The notes beneath the pieces are model-generated. The model searched no databases. It saw only the letters and a list, made by a program, of their open reading frames with translations, and had not been told where the DNA came from. The translations under genes and the position numbers were made by a program. From NCBI GenBank assembly GCA_017514785.1, contig JAFWIO010000076.1:1-64000 (forward strand): a DNA stretch of 64,000 bases, read 5' to 3'. Origin of the DNA: Eubacterium sp. Its GTDB lineage: Bacteria > Bacillota > Clostridia > Lachnospirales > Lachnospiraceae. How positions within the stretch are numbered: position 1 is the first letter of the stretch; the number at the start of each line of letters is the position of its first letter. Below are positions 3,221-47,794 of the stretch, piece after piece.

Positions 3221-3351
3221 AGGGATTCTTTGAGGTGGTCAATTTCGTGGCAGCCACGTACCCTATGGGTCAAAAGAGATGCAGGGGAATGCCACGCCTG
3301 CCAAAGAATACTTTTAGAAGAAAATGCACCCACAAACTGGGTGCCTTTTTT
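3221..3351 (+). ncRNA. candidate structured RNA ending in a terminator
   Basis: Between the DUF1016 gene and the next CDS lies a compact fold. An outer 8-bp stem pairs ATTCTTTG (3225-3232) with CAAAGAAT (3302-3309). Inside are a CGTGG-CAG-CCACG hairpin (3246-3258), an ACCC-TAT-GGGT hairpin (3260-3270) and a GCAGG/CCTGC stem (3281-3301). GTGGCA (3247-3252) can pair instead with TGCCAC (3290-3295) in the last loop, suggesting a pseudoknot or switch. A strong terminator follows (GCACCCA/TGGGTGC at 3326-3344, T-run to 3351). It matches no riboswitch class I can recall. It may equally be a structured 3' UTR. Confidence 0.4.
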
Positions 3352-36271: not shown

Positions 36272-36538
36272 ATGATTTCAAAAGAAGTTAAGGCTAAGTT
36301 AACTGCTGAGTATGGTAAGACACCTACAGACACTGGTTCACCAGCTGTACAGGTTGCTATTCTTACTTACAGAATCCAGGAACTTACAGAGCATTTAAAA
36401 GTAAATGCTAAAGATCACCACTCAAGAAGAGGACTTCTAAAGATGGTTGGTAAGAGACGTGGACTACTTGACTATATCAAAGCTAATGATATTGAAGAGT
36501 ACAGAGAGTTAATTGAGAAATTAGACATTCGAAAATAA
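36272..36538 (+). CDS. rpsO: 30S ribosomal protein S15
   Basis: Primary 16S rRNA-binding protein of the platform. The 88 residues match: [58 protein letters not shown] precedes the ATG. In many Firmicutes pnp follows directly; here nine kb of other genes lie between. Confidence 0.98.
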
Positions 36539-36545
36539 CGCGTTC

Positions 36546-36682
36546 AAAAGGGCAGTTATTCAGAAAAATAAAAAAACAGACAGTTGGAAATTTATTTCCA
36601 ACTGTCTTTTTTTATTTTTCTTCATATCGCGATTGCGCGATATGATAGATTTCGCGAAGCGAAATCAGAATAACGCCCTTTT
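36546..36682 (+). repeat. cloverleaf-like structured element, copy 1 (includes the rpsO terminator)
   Basis: An outer stem (36546-36561 with 36668-36682, 15 bp with one bulged A) encloses three hairpins. The first is a long terminator-type stem (36563-36620), AT-rich at the base with GACAGTTGGAAA arms at the tip and a T-run. The second is CATATCGCG-ATTG-CGCGATATG (36623-36644). The third is GATTTCGC-GAA-GCGAAATC (36648-36666). The same arrangement with different stem sequences follows pnp at 47628-47768. Confidence 0.8.
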
Positions 36683-36755: not shown

Positions 36756-37298
36756 ATGTCACCAAGTGTAGCATCAGCATTAACAATTGTTTTATCAATA
36801 ATTGTAACTATTGTTGGTATTGTATTTTTCTTACCACAAAAGAACAAGGAAAAGTTTGGTAAGGTATTTTCAAGATTCCATGATTTCTTTAACTTTAAGA
36901 CATTAATCGTGGATTACGTGTTGAAGGGAATGTATATCCTTGCAACAGCAATGTGTATTATCGGAGGATTTTTCACAATCTTTACAGTGGAAACATATTA
37001 CACTACTACAGGTACTATGTTTAACTCATCAAGTGAAGCACATACTAGTCTAAGTATAGCAAATCTTGGAACAGGATTATTAATTATGATTCTTGGACCA
37101 ATTCTTGTAAGAATTATCTACGAACTAATAATGTTAACAATTGTTGGAGTTAAGAACATTATTGAGATTAACAAGAAGATGGATTGTTGCAAAGGCGAAG
37201 AGGCAAAGACTGAAACAGAGGAACCTACTTTTGTAGAGGAACCAACAGTAAGCGCTCCAGTAGAGCCTGAAGCACCAAACGATACACCTACAGTTTAA
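36756..37298 (+). CDS. DUF4282-like membrane protein
   Basis: A 180-residue protein. Three hydrophobic segments (about 5-27, 55-80, 105-130) and FHDFFNFKTLIVDYVLKGMY ... LGTGLLIMILGPILVRIIYELIML resemble the DUF4282 family of unknown function. The C-terminal tail is acidic and Pro/Thr/Val-rich. AAGGAGG precedes the ATG, and TATAAT is at 36702-36707. It is monocistronic: a strong terminator follows. Confidence 0.6.
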   Translation: MSPSVASALTIVLSIIVTIVGIVFFLPQKNKEKFGKVFSRFHDFFNFKTLIVDYVLKGMYILATAMCIIGGFFTIFTVETYYTTTGTMFNSSSEAHTSLSIANLGTGLLIMILGPILVRIIYELIMLTIVGVKNIIEINKKMDCCKGEEAKTETEEPTFVEEPTVSAPVEPEAPNDTPTV

Positions 37299-37313
37299 TA
37301 TTATTATGAATTT

Positions 37314-37352
37314 AAAAGAGCAGTTATTAAAAGAATAACTGCTCTTTTTTTT
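37314..37352 (+). terminator. Rho-independent terminator
   Basis: A perfect 15-bp stem (AAAAGAGCAGTTATT and complement) with an AAAAG loop and a T-run. Confidence 0.9.
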
Positions 37353-37418
37353 ATAATTATTTTGTGAGATAATACTCATTAGGTAAAGTGCGGATTATAT
37401 CTTACAGGAGGTCTTAAG

Positions 37419-39635
37419 ATGAAGGCAAATAAAAAAATAATTGCGCTTTTGTGCGCGGTAGCTTTAGTTATTGCTGGAATAGCATATGCTCCAAGTGGAG
37501 TAAAAGCTAATGATTATTCTGGCTTAACTTACAAGGATATCAGAGATAACAAAAATACGGAGTTCGATCAGAAACTGAAAGGTGCTCAGTATGCTGTTTA
37601 TAATGAACAGAGAAATATTGAGATTGTTCAATTCCAAAACGTTGCTTTTAGTGAACTATATATAGCAAACGGCGGATGGAGTGCAGATCAGTTGAAGGCT
37701 TCAGTTAATGGAAAGGATGTTACTACAGAAGGTGCGGGAATTAGAATTTTAAATGCGGCCACTGTACTAACTAAAAGATATAATGAAGTATCTCTCACAT
37801 GGAATGGCGGAAGTACTCTAATTATTGTTTTCTGTCCAGAGATAGCAGAGGACACAGAAAGTACTGAAGCCCCTAGTGCTCCAGAGAGTGGAACACCATC
37901 GGGAGAAACTACTAGCAAAACAGTAGATCCTACATCGGGCGGAGTTGTTACTACATCTGCAGCAGGGACTACAGCACCAGCAGTTTCTACTACAGTTCCA
38001 GATGCTTCTCAACTTCCTAAGAAAGCAGAAGGACTAAACCCACAGGTGAAGACAGACCAATATAGCATCGACAATGCAGTTCTTTTGGCTTGGGCTAGTG
38101 TAATGGAACCAACTAACCCTAACTACGATTCATCAGTATATGCATATAACTTATATGTATATAAAGATGGAGTACAAGTATCAAAAGTTTGCAATGTAAC
38201 AAACGGTTGTATTTTGGGCGGTTTATCAAGTGGCACATATGGTTTCGCCATAGCTGCTGTAAATGCAATGGGTGAAGGACCAAAGTCAAATACTGCAAAC
38301 GCTGCTATTACAGGAGCCACTTTGGATTACACTCCAAAGGCAGAGTACAATGGACCAAAGATTCCAGATGGATTTTCTATCACATCTGCAGACCCTCAAT
38401 ATCAGTCTACAGTGCCAGAAGAAAATCAAAAGAATGTTTTACAGGTGGCATGGGCAGCCAGCAATGGTAATCCTCTAGCACCTGGATATGATACATCAGT
38501 AGTTGGATATAATGTATATGTCTTTGACGCGGACACAGGAAAGCCTTACAGAAGAGTATACGTAGATGGAATTGGTACAAACACTGCTATAATGAAAAAT
38601 GTTTCAGCAGGAAACTATGTATGTTTCGCTACAGCAGTTAGCGCGACCGGCGAATCAGGAATGGCAGCACCAGGACTTAGCCTTCCATCTTCAGTTACAA
38701 TCAAGGGCGATGTGATTGATAATGCGCAAGATTTCGATTACCCAGATCAGCCAGACCTACCTTTGGGATTAGTGATAAATGAATTAGAAGCGGCTGCAGG
38801 AGGATTCAGTGTAGCTTGGTCTAGAGACGCTGATTTGACAGGACAGAGAATTAATGTCTTTGTAAATGGCGTGTGCGTGAAGTGTGGAGCGAACGATTCT
38901 GTTGATCCAACATATCACGAGAAAAGATTAAAACCAGGAACTTATGAAGTATCAGTTACTTCACAGTTTATTTCAAATAATGTAGAGTCATTCCCTCTTA
39001 CTAAGACTGTAGTAGTAGGTGGCGATGGAACAAATACTCCTGAGCAAATAGCAGACCCAACTTATTCAGGATATGTTCCACCACAAACAGATCCAGTCAC
39101 TCAGGCTACAAGCGAAGAGGCTACAACTGAAGAGACTCAAGAGCCAACAGATGTCACACAGGCACCAACAGACGCTACACAGGCACCTACTGAAGAAGTA
39201 GTTACCACTACAAAGGCATCAGAAACTACAGTTGCACCAGTAGATACAACAGTAGCACCTGTTGAAACCACAAAGGCTCCAGTAGACCCTACAAAAGCTC
39301 CAGTGGTTACTACAAAAGCAACTACTAAAAAGCCTAGCGCAAAGGTTACTGTTGGAAAGACTAAAGTTAAAAAGTTTACTAAGAAGAAATCTGCAAAGAA
39401 AGCAAAAGTTAAACTTAAAAAAGTGGCTGGAGCTAGTGGATATCAGATTAGATATGGTATTGGAAAGAAACTTAAGAAAGCTAAGACTAAGAATGTATTT
39501 AAGCTTAAGTTTACTTTGAAGAAGTTGAAGAAAAACAAAAAATACTATATTAAGGCAAGAGCTTTTAAGAATGTTGGTACATCCAAATTCTTTGGCGCAT
39601 GGTCTAAACTAAAAAAAGTTAAGTTTAAAAAGTAG
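37419..39635 (+). CDS. secreted surface protein with Fn3-like domains
   Basis: A 738-residue exported protein. Signal peptide about 1-30 (ends near VKA). An N-terminal beta domain is followed by a Thr/Ser/Pro linker (about 145-200) and three Fn3-like domains (about 200-295, 305-430, 440-540; the first two share the phrase NPxYDSSVYAYNLYVY / YDTSVVGYNVYVF). A second linker of TQAPT/TTKAP repeats (about 555-640) leads to a lysine-rich Fn3-like C-terminus ending WSKLKKVKFKK. No catalytic motif is seen, so it is likely an adhesin or scaffold. GGAGG precedes the ATG. It is 9 bp from the next gene. Confidence 0.65.
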   Translation: MKANKKIIALLCAVALVIAGIAYAPSGVKANDYSGLTYKDIRDNKNTEFDQKLKGAQYAVYNEQRNIEIVQFQNVAFSELYIANGGWSADQLKASVNGKDVTTEGAGIRILNAATVLTKRYNEVSLTWNGGSTLIIVFCPEIAEDTESTEAPSAPESGTPSGETTSKTVDPTSGGVVTTSAAGTTAPAVSTTVPDASQLPKKAEGLNPQVKTDQYSIDNAVLLAWASVMEPTNPNYDSSVYAYNLYVYKDGVQVSKVCNVTNGCILGGLSSGTYGFAIAAVNAMGEGPKSNTANAAITGATLDYTPKAEYNGPKIPDGFSITSADPQYQSTVPEENQKNVLQVAWAASNGNPLAPGYDTSVVGYNVYVFDADTGKPYRRVYVDGIGTNTAIMKNVSAGNYVCFATAVSATGESGMAAPGLSLPSSVTIKGDVIDNAQDFDYPDQPDLPLGLVINELEAAAGGFSVAWSRDADLTGQRINVFVNGVCVKCGANDSVDPTYHEKRLKPGTYEVSVTSQFISNNVESFPLTKTVVVGGDGTNTPEQIADPTYSGYVPPQTDPVTQATSEEATTEETQEPTDVTQAPTDATQAPTEEVVTTTKASETTVAPVDTTVAPVETTKAPVDPTKAPVVTTKATTKKPSAKVTVGKTKVKKFTKKKSAKKAKVKLKKVAGASGYQIRYGIGKKLKKAKTKNVFKLKFTLKKLKKNKKYYIKARAFKNVGTSKFFGAWSKLKKVKFKK

Positions 39636-39644
39636 GAGAAGATT

Positions 39645-40070
39645 ATGAGATTCAAAAAATGGAGACTTCTAAGAGGTGTTTTAAGGAAGACGCACACTTA
39701 CAAAATAATAGTTGCGTTTTTTGCAGTGTTCTTTCTTATCGCATTAATCATCTGGTTAAATGATCCAGCTGTCCATACTTACAGACAAAGCATTTATTAT
39801 TGCTTTATGATTGCATCATCCGTGGGTAATGGAGATGTTATTGTAAGTACTACACTAGCTAGGATTCTAACGATGTTTTTGTCTGTCTACTCATTGTTTG
39901 CGATAGCTATCGTTACTGGAGTAGTAGTAAGTTACTACAATGCATATACACAAATGCAGTTTAGGGATTCTATCGAAAACTTCACTGAGAAGTTAGAGCA
40001 ACTTCCAGATTTGAGTGAAGATGAGCTAAGAGAAATCTCAGATGCAGTTAAGAAGTTTAGAATGAAATAA
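39645..40070 (+). CDS. two-TM potassium-channel-like protein with an unusual filter
   Basis: A 141-residue membrane protein of the Ion_trans_2 type: TM1 (about 20-37), pore helix and filter (50-64), TM2 (about 72-92), then a cytosolic coiled helix. The filter reads SSVGNGD (58-64), where potassium channels have TVGYGD or TIGFGD. Asn62 replaces the aromatic residue, so ion selectivity may differ. AGGAG precedes the ATG. It is directly downstream of the surface protein and ends at a terminator. Confidence 0.75.
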   Translation: MRFKKWRLLRGVLRKTHTYKIIVAFFAVFFLIALIIWLNDPAVHTYRQSIYYCFMIASSVGNGDVIVSTTLARILTMFLSVYSLFAIAIVTGVVVSYYNAYTQMQFRDSIENFTEKLEQLPDLSEDELREISDAVKKFRMK

Positions 40071-40075
40071 TCTTA

Positions 40076-40141
40076 TTAACAATTATTTAAATATGTATTA
40101 TACTAAATTAGGGGTTGGTTTTATCTTCCCCTAATTTTTTT
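40076..40141 (+). terminator. terminator with an embedded promoter
   Basis: The hairpin AAATTAGGGG/CCCCTAATTT (40105-40114, 40128-40137) with a T-run ends upstream transcription. TTAACA (40076-40081) and TATACT (40099-40104), 17 bp apart, make a promoter whose transcript would start inside the left arm and so not form the full terminator. Confidence 0.65.
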
Positions 40142-40158
40142 AAAAGAGGGTGATTCGG

Positions 40159-41574
40159 ATGAGTCCGGAACAAATAGTTGCAATTATAATATTTGTCGCA
40201 ATGTTCGTATTGATAGTCATCGACAAAATTGAAAGACACTATGTCACATTAGGATGTGGTGTACTTACAATAATAATGTTTTTTGTTTTCTCACAGCTCG
40301 GATACGGAGCGTTCAGCGAAACGATGAATGTAAGATCGATTATCAAAGACCAGTTTTGGATTGTTACAGGACACGCATCGGAGAGTGTGACAGGTATTAA
40401 CTGGGCCACTATCATATTTATAGCAGGAATGATGATAATGGTAGAGGGAATGGCACACTCTGGTTTCTTTAGATGGCTATGTCTAAAGTTAGCTAAATTA
40501 GTGCATTACAAACCTATTCCTTTGTTTGTGGCGTTTATGATAATGTCATCTATTCTTGCTATGTTTATCGACAGTATCACAGTTATTCTTTTCTTAGCTG
40601 CGGTCACAGTAGAACTAGCAAGACTTTTAAAGATAGATCCAGTACCTATGATTCTCTCAGAAATATTCTGTGCGAACCTAGGTGGTAGTGCAACTATGTG
40701 TGGTGATCCACCAAATATTATTATTGGAACATCTATGCATTACACATTCTTTGACTTTATCACAAACACAGGACTAATCGCATTAATTAGTTTAGTGTTA
40801 ATCATTTTCTATTTCTTCTGGATTTTCAGAAAGAAGCTAATAGAAGAAGAACATATGACTATAGATACATCAACTATTCCTGAGCCAAGTGAAGCGATAG
40901 TAAACAAGAGAGATTTTGTTTTTAGCTCAATCATTTTTGGCTTGGCAGTAGTTTTACTTATAACACATTCAATGACAGGACTTACAGTAGCAACTATCGG
41001 TATTGGAATTGCAATACTAACACTTATTGTTGCTGGTAAGAATGCACTTACTATTTTGAAGAAGGTTGATTATAAAACATTACTATTCTTCATTGGTTTA
41101 TTCATAGTAGTAGGTGGTCTTGAAAAGACAAAAGTACTTGAGGTTATGGCTAATGGTATTGGTCATATCAGTGGCGGAAATCCATATATTGTAATTACAA
41201 TCGTTCTTTGGTTATCTGCTATAGCAAGTGCCTTTGTGGACAACATTCCATTTGCAGCAACTATGGTTCCAGTTATCATTGGACTAGCAAGCGGAGTGCA
41301 TGCGCCAACAGCCGTTCAAAAAGATTATCGACATGTTTTGGCGTGGACGCTTTCAATGGGTACTGACGTTGGTGGTAGTGCTACACCAATCGGTGCTAGT
41401 GCAAACGTAGTTGGTACTTCAGTGGCAGCTAAACACGGTTACATGATAGGCTGGGGCAAATACTGTAAGAGTGCAGTTCCTGCCACAGTAATTGTAATAT
41501 TAGTTTCAATGGGTGTAATCTTTATCAGATATAATCGCGAGATTACGGAAGTTATTAACAGCATAGCTAAGTAG
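40159..41574 (+). CDS. ArsB/NhaD-type ion transporter superfamily permease
   Basis: A 471-residue polytopic protein (about 11-12 hydrophobic segments) of the ArsB/NhaD/CitM ion-transporter superfamily. The repeated family motifs are visible: MFIDSITVILFLAAV with NLGGSATMCGDPPNIIIG in the first half, and AFVDNIPFAATMVPVI with DVGGSATPIGASANVVG in the second. These paired re-entrant motifs bind the ion or substrate. Whether it moves an anion, a dicarboxylate or sodium cannot be decided. GTG 40150 is an alternative, but ATG 40159 has GAGGG at the better distance. It shares a unit with the next gene, 14 bp apart. Confidence 0.85.
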   Translation: MSPEQIVAIIIFVAMFVLIVIDKIERHYVTLGCGVLTIIMFFVFSQLGYGAFSETMNVRSIIKDQFWIVTGHASESVTGINWATIIFIAGMMIMVEGMAHSGFFRWLCLKLAKLVHYKPIPLFVAFMIMSSILAMFIDSITVILFLAAVTVELARLLKIDPVPMILSEIFCANLGGSATMCGDPPNIIIGTSMHYTFFDFITNTGLIALISLVLIIFYFFWIFRKKLIEEEHMTIDTSTIPEPSEAIVNKRDFVFSSIIFGLAVVLLITHSMTGLTVATIGIGIAILTLIVAGKNALTILKKVDYKTLLFFIGLFIVVGGLEKTKVLEVMANGIGHISGGNPYIVITIVLWLSAIASAFVDNIPFAATMVPVIIGLASGVHAPTAVQKDYRHVLAWTLSMGTDVGGSATPIGASANVVGTSVAAKHGYMIGWGKYCKSAVPATVIVILVSMGVIFIRYNREITEVINSIAK

Positions 41575-41588
41575 ACGGAGGAAGAGAT

Positions 41589-42191
41589 ATGGCAAAACAA
41601 GTAATCGTAACAATAGGAAGAGAGTTTGGAAGTGGCGGTCATGAGATTGCAAGAAAGCTTGCGGCTAAACTCGACATAAAATTATATGATAAAAACATCT
41701 TAGATGAAATTGCTAAGCAGAAGAATATGGAGTCTGGCGAAGTACGTAAACTGGATGAGAAACCAAGAGGATGGTTTGGTTCAAGACGAGTGCGTGGCCA
41801 TACAAACTCACTCCAAGATCATATTGCCCAGATGCAGTTTGATTATATTAAGGAAAAATCAGAATCAGGTGAGTCCTTTGTTGTAGTCGGAAGATGCGCA
41901 GAGCACGTGCTAAAAGACCATAACAGTGTAATCTCTATCTTTGTCTTGGCTGATGAAGATGTGAAAATAGAAAGACTTAAGAGAACAGACGGAATGGATG
42001 AAAAAGAAGCAGTTCGTGAGATGCTAAGACGCGATGGCATAAGAAAGGCATATCACAACAGCCATACAGTTTCTAAATGGCGTCATCCAGAAACATATGA
42101 CCTTTGTATAAACAGTAGTAGACTTGGAATTGATGGTACAGTAGATGCTCTGATTGATTATATTAACAGAAGAATTGAAGAAATGGATTAA
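41589..42191 (+). CDS. cytidylate-kinase-like family protein
   Basis: A 200-residue P-loop nucleotide kinase-like protein (Cytidylate_kin2). It begins VIVTIGREFGSGGHEIARKLA, a variant P-loop in which GREFGSGG replaces GPxGxGKST, followed by LYDKNILDEIAK. VVVGRCAEHVLKDH and the arginine-rich lid RLKRTDGMDEKEAVREMLRRD match this family. The true substrate is not known. GGAGG lies in the gap from the transporter gene, and a terminator follows. Confidence 0.85.
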   Translation: MAKQVIVTIGREFGSGGHEIARKLAAKLDIKLYDKNILDEIAKQKNMESGEVRKLDEKPRGWFGSRRVRGHTNSLQDHIAQMQFDYIKEKSESGESFVVVGRCAEHVLKDHNSVISIFVLADEDVKIERLKRTDGMDEKEAVREMLRRDGIRKAYHNSHTVSKWRHPETYDLCINSSRLGIDGTVDALIDYINRRIEEMD

Positions 42192-42200
42192 TAAATATAG

Positions 42201-42233
42201 GCTCCTAAGTGATTGTTCACTTGGGAGCTTTTT
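42201..42233 (+). terminator. Rho-independent terminator
   Basis: A 12-bp stem (GCTCCTAAGTGA / TCACTTGGGAGC, one G-T pair) with a TTGT loop and five T. Confidence 0.85.
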
Positions 42234-42234
42234 G

Positions 42235-42293
42235 TTGACAATATAGAAAGATTTGTTTATTATTAAATTGTACTAATACAAATAGTACAATTT
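42235..42293 (+). promoter_or_regulatory. promoter and operator of the GntR-ABC operon
   Basis: TTGACA (42235-42240) and TATTAT (42258-42263), spacing 17 bp. Directly downstream is a perfect 11-bp inverted repeat, AAATTGTACTA and its complement with a 7-nt centre (42265-42293), covering the expected start site. GTACTA-type palindromes fit YtrA/GntR-family binding, so the next gene probably represses its own operon. Confidence 0.8.
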
Positions 42294-42310
42294 ATTTTTG
42301 GAGAGAAAAG

Positions 42311-42679
42311 ATGATTACAATTAATTTTCAATCTAGGACTCCAATATATCAACAAATATATGACGATATTGTTAGGTTGATAGCACTAGGGGTTTTAAAA
42401 GCAGATACTAAATTACCTACGGTCAGGTCTTTGGCGGTGGAAACTGGTATTAATCCGAATACTGTCTCAAAAGCGTACAAAATGCTTGAGATGGATGGGA
42501 TTACATATTCTGTAGTAGGAAAAGGGAGCTTTGTATCAGACAAACTCTCTCAATCTGATGCCATAAAAACTAGAGAAGAGGAAAAAACCAAAAAGAGAAT
42601 TAGTGAAGCATATAAAAATGGACTTAGTAAAAATGAAATAATAGACATTGTAAATGAAGTGGTGAAGGAGGGTAAATAG
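42311..42679 (+). CDS. GntR-family (YtrA subfamily) transcriptional regulator
   Basis: A 122-residue repressor. It starts with the subfamily signature FQSRTPIYQQIYDDIVRLIALGVLKADTKLPTVRSLA (winged helix-turn-helix, recognition helix GINPNTVSKAYKMLE) and has only a short helical C-terminus, as in YtrA-type regulators of ABC transporter operons. It is directly followed by the ATPase gene and preceded by a likely operator. Confidence 0.9.
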   Translation: MITINFQSRTPIYQQIYDDIVRLIALGVLKADTKLPTVRSLAVETGINPNTVSKAYKMLEMDGITYSVVGKGSFVSDKLSQSDAIKTREEEKTKKRISEAYKNGLSKNEIIDIVNEVVKEGK

Positions 42680-43564
42680 ATGATTAAATTGATAGGAGTC
42701 ACTAAAGAGTTTGACGATATCAAAGCTTTAAACAATATTAATTTAGAAATAAAAGATGGAAGCATTTGTGCGCTGGCTGGAAGTAATGGAAGTGGAAAGA
42801 GTACAATGCTTAGATGTCTTGCGGGCGTCTATAGATGTGAAGAAGGTCAGATTCTAATAGATGGTGAAGAAGTATATGATAATCCGAAGATAAAAGAGAT
42901 TTGCTATTTTATTCCAGACTTTCCATTTTATTATTATGACAGTACGCTTGATAGCACAAGAAAGTTAATGAAGGGTATGTACGAAAACTGGAGTGATGAA
43001 ACTTATGAGCATTTAATTGAGATAACAAGTCTTCCTAGAGATAAGAAGATAATCAACATGAGTAAAGGTATGCAACGTCAAGCTTCGCTCATTATCGCGT
43101 TTTCTACTAAGCCTAAGTATTTCTTTATGGATGAAATCTTTGACGGTCTAGATCCAGTTATTAGAAACACTATAAAGAAAATTATGGTCGAGTGTACTGC
43201 TGAAAATAACACAACATGTATAGTTGCGAGTCACAATATGAGAGAAGTGGATGATGTTTGTGATGAAGTGATTTTTCTACATAATGGAAAACTTGTTGAA
43301 AACCAAGACAAAGAACGTCTCAAAGAAAGCCTTAATAAGATTCAAATAGCTTTTTCAAATGTGCCTGATCCAAAGGTATTTGCAGAACTTAACTGTGAAG
43401 TTGTAAGTCAGACAGGTGGCTATTTTGTTTTGATGGCAAAAGGTGATCTGAAAGAAATAGAAGATAAGTTGAAAGAGATGAATCCAGATTATATAGAAAC
43501 CATCGGTACTTCCTTAGAGGAAGTCTTCATCAACAAAATGGAGGAGGCTGGCTATGGCAAATAA
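42680..43564 (+). CDS. ABC transporter ATP-binding protein
   Basis: A 294-residue nucleotide-binding subunit with Walker A GSNGSGKST (about 34-42), a variant signature NMSKGMQRQ in place of LSGGQ, Walker B YFFMDEIFDGLD, and switch His in VASHN. This set is typical of YtrB-type ATPases in YtrA-controlled operons. GGAGGG precedes the ATG and the gene starts right after the regulator stop. It overlaps the permease by 11 bases. Confidence 0.92.
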   Translation: MIKLIGVTKEFDDIKALNNINLEIKDGSICALAGSNGSGKSTMLRCLAGVYRCEEGQILIDGEEVYDNPKIKEICYFIPDFPFYYYDSTLDSTRKLMKGMYENWSDETYEHLIEITSLPRDKKIINMSKGMQRQASLIIAFSTKPKYFFMDEIFDGLDPVIRNTIKKIMVECTAENNTTCIVASHNMREVDDVCDEVIFLHNGKLVENQDKERLKESLNKIQIAFSNVPDPKVFAELNCEVVSQTGGYFVLMAKGDLKEIEDKLKEMNPDYIETIGTSLEEVFINKMEEAGYGK

Positions 43565-45404
43565 AACTTCAAAAAGAGAAAGAAAAAAGATGTTTGTGTT
43601 GTTCAAACATAGTATAAAAAGAAACATGTCTATTAATATTATTTACCTATGCTTTCTTGTGATAGGACTTCCTATATTGCAATTGATTATAAGGTTAAAT
43701 AAAAAAATGTTTGTATTTGACGTTGTAGATGATTTTCAAGAGTTCTACGAAGAGATTAGTGTGGGGATTGCTTCATACTTAATTGTATCTATAGTTTTCA
43801 TTTTCTCTACAATTATTGCTTCAATGACGTTTAGATATTTGCATCAAAAACGCCAAGAAGACTTCATAGAGAGTACTCCTTTGAAGAAGTCGCAAATAGT
43901 TATGTCAAAGTATTTAGCAATAATCGTTCAAGTGCTTGTTCCGTTGATATTGGTATTAATATTAGGCGGAGTTTTGACATTTTCATGGTCAGGATTTTTA
44001 GGAGTGATGCATGTACTTGGATTGATGATTATCATGGTTATAAGCCATATTACAATAACGGCTTTAATGTTCCAGTATACTGGACAAACATTTACAGCTA
44101 TTGCCATGGTCGTTTTGTTGAATTGTGCAACACCTATTTTAATTTTCCTATTAATGAGTATGCCAACAGGGATATTACCAGGCTATGTTGATAATTTGCC
44201 GCCAATGATTTCAGCAATCTTTTCGCCTGTCGTTTCTTTTGGACTGGCCGTAAGCGGCAAAGGCGAACTATTCTACATTGTTTATTGGATAATTCTAATA
44301 ATTGCTGGTATTTTTCTTTTGAAAAGAGCATCTGCCCAGAGAAAATCTGAGGAAGCAGAGAATAGATACGTAGCAAAAGGTTTAGAAGTAGGTGCTAAAA
44401 TAGTTGTGATTTGGGCTGCAGGAATTTTGGGTGGAACGATGTTATACAGTTTTGCAGAATTGACCGAAAAGTCGAGAAGTTTAATAATTGCTAATTATAT
44501 TCTCGGTTTATTAGTGGCTGTTTTTATATCTGGTTTGGTATTAGAAGTAATTATAAATAAGAGTTTAAAGAAATTTAAATCTGTATTAATTATTATGATA
44601 GCGCTCGTTGTAGTCAACGTAGGATACTATTTTGCTATTTCGTATGATGTTATCGGTTATGTTAAAAAAGTGCCAAAGATAGAAGATGTAGAAGCTGTCA
44701 CTGTGAGTATGTTTGACACTTTTGATGAGGATGAATATTCAGTTTCATATTCTGATGAAAAGCATAAGAAAGATTTACTAGAAATCCATAATAGAATCAT
44801 TGAAACTATTGAAGATAAATATCCATCTGGCTTTTATAAACTAGATGAATCACTATTAGATGATTTTGATGAGGGTTCTAAATCAGATTCACCCGATGCA
44901 GACAAGAACTCAAAATCAGGCTCATCTGATGCTGATGATGATTATAACTATAATACACCAGATAAGGAAGAATACCCTGATGAATTTGACGATGAAGAAA
45001 GCACTTGGGATAATGAATATTTTACTTTTACGTATAAATTAAAAGATGGAAGTACATTGAAACGAGAGTACTCTATGCCGAGAAGTTCAATGGGAATGTT
45101 TGAACAAGATGTTAACTATAAAGTATTAAGAAACACTAATCCGAAAGACTATGAAAGTTATATGGTATATGAAAATGAAGAAAACTATGGAGGAGACCAC
45201 GGTTATGACAGAAAAAAGGATTTGAAAGAAATAGTAAATGCTCTAAAAGATGACTATAAACAGTATGGTGCAGTTAAATATTCATCAGAGTGTTTCCTTC
45301 TTTGTATTTCTACCGAGGAAGAAGATCTAAAGTTTAATATTCCTCCAAATTACGACCGTGTAATTAATACATTAAAAAAACAAGGGATTGATATCCCTAA
45401 ATAA
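43554..45404 (+). CDS. ABC transporter permease with a large acidic extracytoplasmic domain
   Basis: A 616-residue membrane protein. About eight hydrophobic segments occupy residues 18-365. From about 370 to the end there is a soluble, acidic domain with a low-complexity Ser/Asp stretch (about 445-480), likely outside the membrane. No ligand is evident. It pairs with the overlapping ATPase gene and the GntR regulator, an arrangement common in peptide or antibiotic-response exporters. GGAGGAGG precedes the ATG. Confidence 0.75.
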   Translation: MANKTSKRERKKMFVLFKHSIKRNMSINIIYLCFLVIGLPILQLIIRLNKKMFVFDVVDDFQEFYEEISVGIASYLIVSIVFIFSTIIASMTFRYLHQKRQEDFIESTPLKKSQIVMSKYLAIIVQVLVPLILVLILGGVLTFSWSGFLGVMHVLGLMIIMVISHITITALMFQYTGQTFTAIAMVVLLNCATPILIFLLMSMPTGILPGYVDNLPPMISAIFSPVVSFGLAVSGKGELFYIVYWIILIIAGIFLLKRASAQRKSEEAENRYVAKGLEVGAKIVVIWAAGILGGTMLYSFAELTEKSRSLIIANYILGLLVAVFISGLVLEVIINKSLKKFKSVLIIMIALVVVNVGYYFAISYDVIGYVKKVPKIEDVEAVTVSMFDTFDEDEYSVSYSDEKHKKDLLEIHNRIIETIEDKYPSGFYKLDESLLDDFDEGSKSDSPDADKNSKSGSSDADDDYNYNTPDKEEYPDEFDDEESTWDNEYFTFTYKLKDGSTLKREYSMPRSSMGMFEQDVNYKVLRNTNPKDYESYMVYENEENYGGDHGYDRKKDLKEIVNALKDDYKQYGAVKYSSECFLLCISTEEEDLKFNIPPNYDRVINTLKKQGIDIPK

Positions 45405-45428: not shown

Positions 45429-45528
45429 TTGATTTTTCCCTTATTTTAGGCTAGTATATGTAAGGTTACATAAAAGTTAAAGAATTAAGAAAAGGAGAGG
45501 CCAAAAGAGTTGGCCGGAAGAAGAAATG
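45429..45528 (+). promoter_or_regulatory. pnp promoter and hairpin leader
   Basis: TTGATT (45429-45434) and TAGTAT (45452-45457), 17 bp apart. The leader has AGGAG (45493-45497), then GGCCAA-AAGAG-TTGGCC (45499-45515), then GGAAG and the ATG at 45526. The hairpin lies between a strong and a weaker ribosome binding site. Confidence 0.65.
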
Positions 45529-47607
45529 AAAAGTTTTAGTATGGAGATTGGCGGCAAAACATTAACAGTCGATATCGACAGAGTCGCTAAACAAGCAAAC
45601 GGTGCAGCAATGATGCACTATGGAGACACAACAGTTCTATCTACAGCTACGGCTTCAGAGAAGCCTAGAGAAGGAATCGATTTCTTCCCTCTATCAGTAG
45701 AGTTTGAGGAGAAGATGTACTCAGTAGGTAAGATTCCTGGTGGATTTAATAAGAGAGAGGGTAAGGCTTCAGAAAACTCAGTTCTTACAGCTAGAGTTAT
45801 CGACAGACCTATGCGTCCTCTATTTCCTAAAGACTACAGAAACGATGTTACATTAAACAACCTTGTTTTATCTGTAGATCCAGAATGTAGACCAGAGATT
45901 GTAGCAATGCTTGGTTCAGCTATTTCAACTTGCGTTTCTGACATTCCATTTGCCGGACCATGTGCTATGACACAGATCGGTTTAGTGGATGGTGAGTTTG
46001 TTGTAAACCCATCACAGAAACAGTGGGACGAAGGTGACCTACAGCTTACAGTTGCGTCTACAAAAGAAAAAGTAATTATGATTGAAGCCGGTGCTAATAT
46101 CATCCCAGAAGATAAGATGATTGAAGCTATTTATATGGCGCATGATATCAACCAAGAGATTAACGCATTTATCGAAAAGATTTGTGCTGAGGTTGGTAAA
46201 GAAAAACACGAATATGAGAGTCAGGCTATCCCTGAAGAATTATTCGACGCCATCAAAGAAATCGTTACTCCAGAAGAGATGGAAGTAGCAGTATTTACTG
46301 ATGACAAGCAAACAAGAGAAGCTAACATTTCAGAAATCACTGAGAAGTTAGAGGAAGCTTTTGCAGAAAACGAAGATTACCTAGCAGTATTAGGTGAAGC
46401 TATCTATCAGTATCAGAAGAAGACTGTACGTAAGATGATCTTGAAAGACCACAAGCGTCCTGACGGAAGAGAACTAGATCAGATTAGACCACTTGCTGCA
46501 GAAGTTGATTTAATTCCAAGAGTTCATGGTTCAGCTATGTTTACTCGTGGACAAACTCAGATCTGTAACATCTGTACTTTGGCTCCTTTGTCAGAGTCAC
46601 AGAGAATCGATGGATTAGATGAGAACGTAACAACTAAGAGATATATGCACCACTACAATTTCCCATCATACTCAGTTGGTGAGACTAGACCATCAAGAGG
46701 TCCAGGACGAAGAGAAATTGGTCACGGTGCTTTGGCTGAGAAAGCTCTTATGCCAGTACTTCCTAGCGAAGAGGAATTCCCATATGCTATCAGAACTGTA
46801 TCAGAGACATTTGAGTCAAACGGTTCTACATCAATGGCATCAACATGTTCATCATGTATGTCACTAATGGCAACAGGTGTTCCAATTAAAGCTATGGTAG
46901 CAGGTATCTCATGTGGTCTTGTTACAGGCGAGACTGATGATGACTATGTACTATTAACTGATATCCAGGGTCTTGAGGACTTCTTCGGCGACATGGACTT
47001 TAAGGTTACAGGTACAACAGAAGGTATCACAGCTATCCAGATGGATATTAAGATTCACGGTCTTACTCGTGAGATAGTAGAAGGCGCAATCAAGCGTACA
47101 AGAGAAGCTAGACTATTCATCATGGACACATGTATGAAGCCAGCTATCGCAGAGCCACGTAAAGAGCTTAACGAATACGCACCAAAGATTGAGTCAATGC
47201 AGATTGACCCAGAGAAGATTGGTGATGTTGTTGGTAAGAGTGGTAAGACTATCAACGCTATTATCGAAGAGACAGGCGTTAAGATTGACATCACAGACGA
47301 AGGTATGGTTTCAATCTGCGGCGTCGACAAAGAAGCTATCGATAAAGCAAAAGAATATATCGAAATCATAACTACAGACTTCGAAGAAGGACAAATCCTA
47401 GAAGGTACTGTAGTAAGCATTAAAGAATTTGGTGCGTTTATCGAATTCGCCCCAGGCAAAGAAGGAATGGTTCACATTTCTAAGATTGCTAAAGAACGCG
47501 TAAACCACGTAGAAGATTACCTAACACTAGGTGACCGCGTTAAATGTAAATGCCTAGGCAAGGATAGAATGGGACGCATTAGTTTCTCAATCAAAGATGC
47601 AGAATAA
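45526..47607 (+). CDS. pnp: polyribonucleotide nucleotidyltransferase (PNPase)
   Basis: 3'-5' phosphorolytic exoribonuclease and degradosome component. The 693 residues contain two RNase PH domains (first with KREGKASENSVLTARVIDRPMRPLF, second with RGQTQICNICTLAP and FPSYSVGETRPSRGPGRREIGHGALAE), then KH (GKSGKTINAIIEETGVKIDI) and S1 (GTVVSIKEFGAFIEFAPGKEGMVHIS) domains. It has its own promoter because rpsO, its usual upstream neighbour, lies 9 kb away. Confidence 0.98.
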   Translation: MKSFSMEIGGKTLTVDIDRVAKQANGAAMMHYGDTTVLSTATASEKPREGIDFFPLSVEFEEKMYSVGKIPGGFNKREGKASENSVLTARVIDRPMRPLFPKDYRNDVTLNNLVLSVDPECRPEIVAMLGSAISTCVSDIPFAGPCAMTQIGLVDGEFVVNPSQKQWDEGDLQLTVASTKEKVIMIEAGANIIPEDKMIEAIYMAHDINQEINAFIEKICAEVGKEKHEYESQAIPEELFDAIKEIVTPEEMEVAVFTDDKQTREANISEITEKLEEAFAENEDYLAVLGEAIYQYQKKTVRKMILKDHKRPDGRELDQIRPLAAEVDLIPRVHGSAMFTRGQTQICNICTLAPLSESQRIDGLDENVTTKRYMHHYNFPSYSVGETRPSRGPGRREIGHGALAEKALMPVLPSEEEFPYAIRTVSETFESNGSTSMASTCSSCMSLMATGVPIKAMVAGISCGLVTGETDDDYVLLTDIQGLEDFFGDMDFKVTGTTEGITAIQMDIKIHGLTREIVEGAIKRTREARLFIMDTCMKPAIAEPRKELNEYAPKIESMQIDPEKIGDVVGKSGKTINAIIEETGVKIDITDEGMVSICGVDKEAIDKAKEYIEIITTDFEEGQILEGTVVSIKEFGAFIEFAPGKEGMVHISKIAKERVNHVEDYLTLGDRVKCKCLGKDRMGRISFSIKDAE

Positions 47608-47627
47608 GCATTAAAATACGCGTTTAA

Positions 47628-47768
47628 AAATGCAGATGCACAGAAAAATAAAAATAGGTACAGATGAGAATTTATTTTCATTTGTGCCTATTTTTATTTT
47701 TCTGTATATCGCGGTTGCGCGATACGAAAGAGTTTGCTCTGCAAACTCTGAGTGACGCATCTGCATTT
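47628..47768 (+). repeat. cloverleaf-like structured element, copy 2 (includes the pnp terminator)
   Basis: The outer stem AAATGCAGATGC/GCATCTGCATTT (47628-47639, 47757-47768) encloses three hairpins. The first is a roughly 30-bp stem (47641-47704) whose base is a perfect 18-bp pairing. The second is TATCGCG-GTTG-CGCGATA (47707-47724). The third is AGAGTTTGC-TCT-GCAAACTCT (47729-47749). It has the same order as the element after rpsO, with most stems changed on both sides. Confidence 0.8.
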
Positions 47769-47794
47769 AATGATTACTAGACTGAAGAAAAATA

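Follow-up and report, generated by a model that had tools for sequence, protein, structure and literature searches.

A dispersed, structured and terminator-like element at gene 3' ends in Eubacterium sp. and its relatives

What is the folded stretch of DNA that directly follows pnp in Eubacterium sp., and why does a second one of the same kind follow rpsO on the other side of a 9-kb block? Both lie in the window analysed here, i.e. the whole stretch of 64,000 nucleotides at the start of contig JAFWIO010000076.1 (assembly GCA_017514785.1). A first-pass annotation, made from the letters alone, had placed behind pnp an element with an outer stem and three hairpins, had read its differences from the rpsO copy as covariation, and had proposed that the pair either mediated the separation of two normally adjacent genes or controlled mRNA decay by PNPase. 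The pnp copy was indeed found at 47628-47768, with an outer helix and three hairpins (H1, H2 and H3):

45526..47607, + strand: pnp (PNPase), the host gene, confirmed with NCBIfam; stop codon at 47605-47607
47619..47627, + strand: left-end motif CGCGTTTAA (subfamily consensus CGCGTTnAAAAGnGCAG)
47628..47639, + strand: 5' arm of the outer helix, pairing with 47757-47768
47640..47705, + strand: H1, a long, terminator-like hairpin with an A-rich 5' arm, a T-rich 3' arm and a TTTA loop
47707..47724, + strand: H2, hairpin TATCGCG-GTTG-CGCGATA
47729..47749, + strand: H3, a hairpin with loop TCT, in other copies often GAA
47757..47768, + strand: 3' arm of the outer helix, pairing with 47628-47639

In the predicted fold the outer helix encloses the three hairpins, and the minimum free energy of 47610-47780 was -78.3 kcal/mol versus -31.7 (sd 3.75) for shuffled sequences (n=200; z -12.4). 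The left-end motif contains a TAA that serves as stop codon of typA and ung where those genes bear the element. The rpsO copy (36539-36682 overall) displayed the same architecture:

36272..36538, + strand: rpsO (ribosomal protein S15, 88 aa), the host gene, confirmed with NCBIfam
36539..36561, + strand: left-end motif and 5' outer arm, beginning directly after the stop codon
36562..36621, + strand: H1, terminator-like on both strands
36622..36645, + strand: H2, from the fold parse
36648..36666, + strand: H3, with tip GCGAAGC
36668..36682, + strand: 3' outer arm, with CTTTT at its end

As first described, the two copies differ in the sequence of the outer stem, the H1 tip and H3 and retain the shared plan, while the AGAAAAATAAAAA base of H1 and the TATCGCG hairpin are conserved between them. 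Both were matched in a scan for terminator-like sequences. A further feature lies between them:

37314..37348, + strand: plain terminator-like hairpin ('solo outer stem'), with stem AAAAGAGCAGTTATT/AATAACTGCTCTTTT and the three inner hairpins absent

The same stem forms the outer helix in some copies of the element (compare locus L023). An Rfam 15 scan of the window returned tRNA and skipping-rope RNA only (the latter, RF02924, at 3225-3309 on the + strand with 57 bits, above its gathering score), and no family reached its gathering score at the element; a permissive scan of the element itself gave 53 matches, all below gathering score and mostly along H1. No description of the element was found in the literature searched, which mostly excluded subscription papers.

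The element is ~140 bases long. A third copy was found 3' of prs by DNA search of the genome, and an improved covariance model (E <= 1e-6) counted 10 in this 1.48-Mb draft. The first covariance model, built from seven copies, covered H1-H3 only, the outer helix being withheld as an independent test. It matched all 23 genomes of the genus at E <= 0.01, the weak ones among the matches listed including antisense and H1-only ones of up to ~47-48 bits; because of these, copies were aligned at a cut-off of ~50 bits or more. Forty further matches were fetched from among the higher-scoring ones, and 50 copies were parsed. An outer helix with exactly three enclosed hairpins was displayed by 42 of them (the helix measuring 1-4 bp in five of these), and eight failed the parse, among them several variants with just H1 and H2 enclosed. 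Variants of this last type were encountered at what we take, from translated ends, to be GH16-type genes; the names pflB and surf used below were presumptively assigned in the same way. A second model, built from 37 copies and run with stricter filters that lose weak matches, recorded the element at E <= 1e-6 in 9 of 196 genomes of the order, its own genome counted. Outside the genus, 11 copies came from eight genomes of other genera; the minimum-energy fold showed the full plan in ten, and the left arm of the other (L095) pairs elsewhere.

That covariation reflects selection on structure, as the first-pass annotation held, was supported by pairing across copies, by outer-arm duplexes and by compensatory change between orthologues. 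In an alignment of 37 copies, which was fitted to structure, 95.7% of cells were paired versus a shuffled mean of 64.5%, both sides had changed in 46 of the 47 core pairs, and the pairing signal collapsed when partners were slid by 1-3 columns. This alignment derived from 36 chosen sources; 13 loci were omitted as variants or as near-identical to others, and a stricter cut-off dropped six low rows (five antisense to a copy and one separate weak match). The outer arms, scored after omission of eight near-identical orthologues, gave mean duplex energies of -17.5 kcal/mol in 42 genus copies (-7.8 shuffled) and -25.4 kcal/mol in the 11 outside ones (-9.8 shuffled). Energies of -12 kcal/mol or better were reached in 32/42 and 9/11 copies, against 84/840 and 63/220 shuffles, and were weaker in 10/42 and 2/11, three scores among L005, L007, L009 and L023 being weakened by core ends that are approximate only. 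The own partner was the best of all partners in 16 of the 42 genus copies and in 7 of the 11 others.

Between orthologous copies at hpf, tuf, dnaJ, ychF, glmS, tsf and surf, 60 pairs were compensated (both sides changed, Watson-Crick) versus 6-14 in slid registers; 34 of them fell in H1, 18 in H2/H3 and eight in the outer helix. In the same set 638 pairs were unchanged and 45 had become plain mismatches, and enlarging it with prs and with glmS of genome G009 gave 63 compensated pairs. The compensatory change claimed for nearly every stem was thus confirmed between orthologues; between copies at different genes the claim failed for H1, which was replaced wholesale and not stepwise. One-sided changes between orthologues yielded G.U in 32 cases and A.C in eight (p 2e-4 if independent; H1 10:2, H2/H3 13:2, outer helix 9:4), counts that are small and not independent, drawn from a small number of related pairs, in helices that were themselves delimited by RNA folding. 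Since equal numbers would be expected if DNA or the opposite strand were the selected form, the excess of G.U favours RNA of the element's own strand, the region beyond H1 included.

The copies are placed at gene ends. The 53 considered lie at no more than 40 different ones, among them those of rpsO, prs, typA, groEL, tuf, tsf, hpf, glmS, ychF, dnaJ and tRNAs. An ORF of at least 100 aa ended within 150 bases, with none crossing the copy, in 40 of the 53 (22 sense, 11 convergent only, 7 both); orientation is therefore not fixed, since 11 copies lie, by ORFs alone, only at a convergent gene end. Five copies were overlapped by long ORFs, which are taken to be spurious, and eight had no gene end by this rule, including the one after rpsO with its 88 aa. 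Four copies have a tRNA gene directly upstream in sense (Met at L065, Thr at L087 and L094, Gly at L102), L102 being convergent-only by its ORFs. NCBIfam was used to check 13 host genes (prs, typA, groEL, tuf, tsf, hpf, glmS, ychF, dnaJ, ung, pnp, rpsO and rplL); the typA match was partial and below cut-off, and the rplL host lies outside the genus.

Close relatives differ in whether a given gene carries the element. At pnp, nucleotide identity is 97-98% among genomes G000, G001, G010 and G020, and relative to these ~94% for G015 and ~92% for G021. Of 17 readable pnp ends (20 were fetched from the genus), only those of G000 and G001 bear the element, and the end in G010, G015, G020 and G021 is a plain hairpin. 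At hpf, the element occurs in G000, G015, G020 and G021 and a plain hairpin in G001 and G010, either state lying between the same stop codon and an almost unchanged downstream sequence. At typA, one plain hairpin is common to G000, G001, G015 and G021 and another occurs in G017, the protein ending in QNEK in all five; in G010 and G020 the element is present, the stop TAA lies inside it and the protein ends in QNAR. The typA copy of G018 (L060) is reversed relative to those two. Differences between element and plain hairpin were also recorded at prs, rpsO, tuf, ung, surf, pflB and groEL.

Gain was polarised at typA only. In G010 and G021 rpsO is followed by apparent right-end remnants, the prs copies of G020 and G021 are truncated, and ung of G021 has a solo outer stem; losses of the element seem visible at rpsO, prs and ung and at 37314-37348 of the window. 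Some plain forms at rpsO, prs and surf resemble remnants, which implies that loss is common. No target-site duplication was seen by eye at the hpf, typA and pnp junctions, where sites look replaced and not cleanly empty, and whole-locus homologous exchange between strains could mimic movement. Other repeats were noticed by eye in the same flanks. The plain hairpins 3' of pnp at L115 (G020), L116 (G010), L117 (G015) and L118 (G021) have different stems and share a loop motif like ACTCACTAGAnAAGTCGnTCG in either orientation, perhaps a second, loop-borne element; the groEL flanks L189 and L192 and the tuf flanks L211 and L223 carry what appears to be a different family of tandem repeats, whose units are hairpins around GCATATGAAATGGCAAAA.

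H1 varied independently of the remainder of the element. For comparison with the right half (H2 to H3), 55 of 61 copies were usable. Right halves were at least 85% identical in 22 non-orthologous pairs, not all independent, whose H1 identity averaged 0.61; pairs with less similar right halves gave 0.59-0.61. Right-half identity of 85% or more was also reached by 16 orthologous pairs, 11 of which kept H1 at 0.89-1.00. The other five were one pair at groEL (0.66), one at ychF (0.71) and three that involve the surf copy of G001 (0.63-0.65), in which the old copy seems to have been replaced by a different one. Both halves had diverged in glmS of G006. H1 seems to be renewed on arrival at a new gene, and not by steady drift alone. 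Its capture from the host gene's own terminator was not supported as a rule: the full H1 was best against the plain flanks of its own gene in 0/10 genes (one tie) and its tip in 1/10 (groEL; one tie), a test that is not final because plain hairpins turn over fast. By eye, the H1 stem at prs is similar to the plain hairpin that prs has in G001 and in G015; the plain hairpin that three or four relatives have in common at typA, hpf and surf is unrelated to H1. Rather less probably than not, a shared scaffold (left end, H2, H3 and outer helix) would spread from one gene end to another as a mobile terminator, with an H1 that is new at each gene and altered in both arms at once, as though captured locally or copied by fold-back.

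Downstream of 13 of the 53 copies there are further right ends, made up of the outer 3' arm with part of H3 and at times part of H2; L094 displays six right-end units, the element's own counted, mostly 50 bases apart. In other genera, partial right-end copies downstream of full ones were seen at L094, L097, L098, L100 and L102.

H1 has the form of an intrinsic terminator, i.e. a stable hairpin with a T-tract at a gene end, and its 3' arm has at least six T in some 9-base stretch in 58/60 copies in sense and 59/60 in antisense. On balance we favour, by a modest degree, the reading that the element is a dispersed, non-autonomous four-way-junction terminator of ~140 bases at gene 3' ends, likely working as RNA. 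H1, the predicted terminator, would end transcription arriving from either side, and transcripts reading through would fold the whole four-way junction, in which the outer helix, H2 and H3 may cap the mRNA 3' end, protecting it or acting as a back-up. The element itself would disperse as a non-autonomous repeat, replacing simple terminators or landing beside them and at times supplying the stop codon of its host gene. One point is at odds with RNA-level selection on the distal parts: with efficient termination at H1, little transcription would reach H2, H3 and the 3' outer arm.

The place of the two window copies on either side of the 9-kb block raised the possibility that they flanked and moved it, or that they regulate PNPase. 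Both copies bound the block in G000, and G001 has both as well. The block itself (36756-45404) encodes an fn3 protein, an ion channel, a CitMHS-type transporter, a cytidylate kinase-like protein, a GntR regulator and an ABC transporter pair. The rpsO-pnp interval varies among relatives from ~2.9 to 9 kb, and the proposed mediation is contradicted by G015 and G020, where the genes lie ~2.9 and 6.5 kb apart with neither element; in G010 and G021 they are split by ~3.4 and 5.7 kb, with no pnp copy and the apparent rpsO remnants mentioned above. Of 80 named pnp loci, 64 contained rpsO as well, and in 62 of those the two genes lay no more than 450 bp apart; no rpsO was found in the remaining 16, some of which are incomplete. 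A single, weak model match in the 80 loci (43 bits, L279) lay between contiguous rpsO and pnp. Control of decay by PNPase lacks specificity, as copies follow many genes unrelated to RNA decay. We regard the whole proposal as highly improbable; the element may still have a general role at mRNA 3' ends.

A weightier alternative, though still rather unlikely in our view, is a mobile element acting at the DNA level, whose single-stranded hairpins would be recognised by a transposase or recombinase supplied in trans, the terminator only making insertions at gene ends harmless. The dispersed copies and their presence or absence among strains are in line with it, as are the tandem right ends and the position of L062, L064 and L065, where by eye the T-tract of an intact plain hairpin immediately precedes the copy. 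So are the GCGAAGC tips, such tips being unusually stable in DNA; known loop stabilities give no clear answer on DNA versus RNA selection. It is opposed by the excess of G.U over A.C between orthologues, an asymmetry indicating RNA from one strand, by the fact that six close genomes with the element yielded neither a Y1 transposase nor a reverse transcriptase, and by the outcome of the phage, plasmid and strict viral-contig searches described below. Quite improbably, the copies could instead be ordinary terminators grown in place, their nested palindromes arising and being kept perfect through replication slippage and template switching, with no mobility and little selection. Plain terminator-like hairpins do turn over fast in the genus, and solo outer stems, partial forms and tandem right ends exist. 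Yet the left-end, H2 and H3 sequences are common to copies at unrelated genes (the 22 non-orthologous pairs), one architecture recurs in other genera, and 11 of the 16 orthologous pairs with similar right halves keep their H1.

How a non-autonomous terminator of the kind favoured here would move was approached through candidate carriers and enzymes. As in MITEs, it has terminal inverted repeats, the outer arms pairing with a sequence that differs from copy to copy. Y1 transposases are linked to REPs; none (PF01797, E <= 0.001) was found in G000, G001, G010, G015, G017, G018, G020 or G021, and the domain was matched in 6 of 23 genus genomes (five over cut-off). Reverse transcriptase (PF00078), matched in 6/23 genus genomes, was found once in G018 and not in G000, G001, G010, G015, G017, G020 or G021. 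Mobilisation by either enzyme was consequently rejected, neither being present in G000, G001, G010, G015, G020 and G021, which are draft genomes 79-96% complete. A retron-like interpretation of the reverse strand, suggested by resemblance, was discarded, reverse transcriptase being absent from these genomes, which likewise speaks against a group II intron. Carriage by phages or plasmids was likewise rejected: phage and plasmid records gave no match, viral contigs none to a strict pattern, and the matches listed for a looser viral-contig pattern (14 fixed bases) were taken as chance. An enzyme that escaped recognition, or recombination between terminator tracts, may underlie any movement.

By description, the closest known kind is that of BOX/SPRITE-type interspersed repeats. 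BOX of Streptococcus pneumoniae is, in the available part of its description, a small interspersed repeat with terminal repeats predicted to pair and with modules that vary in number in tandem; as here, the gene before the repeat in some cases takes its stop codon from it (PMC3049150). Unlike BOX, which repeats its internal boxB module, the present element repeats H3 and the right outer arm at one end in its arrays, has an H1 that differs from gene to gene and arms that covary, and resides in a host of another family (PMC3049150, available part). SPRITE, from the same species, is likewise a dispersed repeat resembling a long intrinsic terminator, but consists of an 18-bp duplex with a U-rich tract, and the part of its description available mentions neither an enclosing helix nor extra hairpins (PMC3049150). 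Hairpin-cluster intrinsic terminators share the succession of several hairpins soon after a stop codon, with a proposed joint termination; they are described as a general property of gene ends, and the accessible part of their description contains no repeat family or mobility (PMC8355165). Candidate RNAs have also been reported from human microbiomes (PMC8040213, available part). REP/RAYT palindromes are, in the part of the source at hand, extragenic and palindromic as well, with a hypothesised role in termination or mRNA stabilisation, but measure 20-40 bp instead of ~140 bp (PMC3733652). The Y1 transposase, moreover, is absent from the close element-bearing genomes here.

The common view of terminators is that of simple hairpins that evolve locally. 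In the present case, strains with ~97-98% identity at pnp either have or lack one structured element at the 3' ends of core genes (ribosomal, elongation-factor, chaperone and tRNA genes). The opposition of a shared scaffold and a private H1 points to a process of copying or exchange that we could match to none described. If the reading favoured here is true, the biology of mRNA 3' ends would be tied to small repeats that move, and matched gene ends that bear or lack the element would form a natural test set for structured 3' ends.
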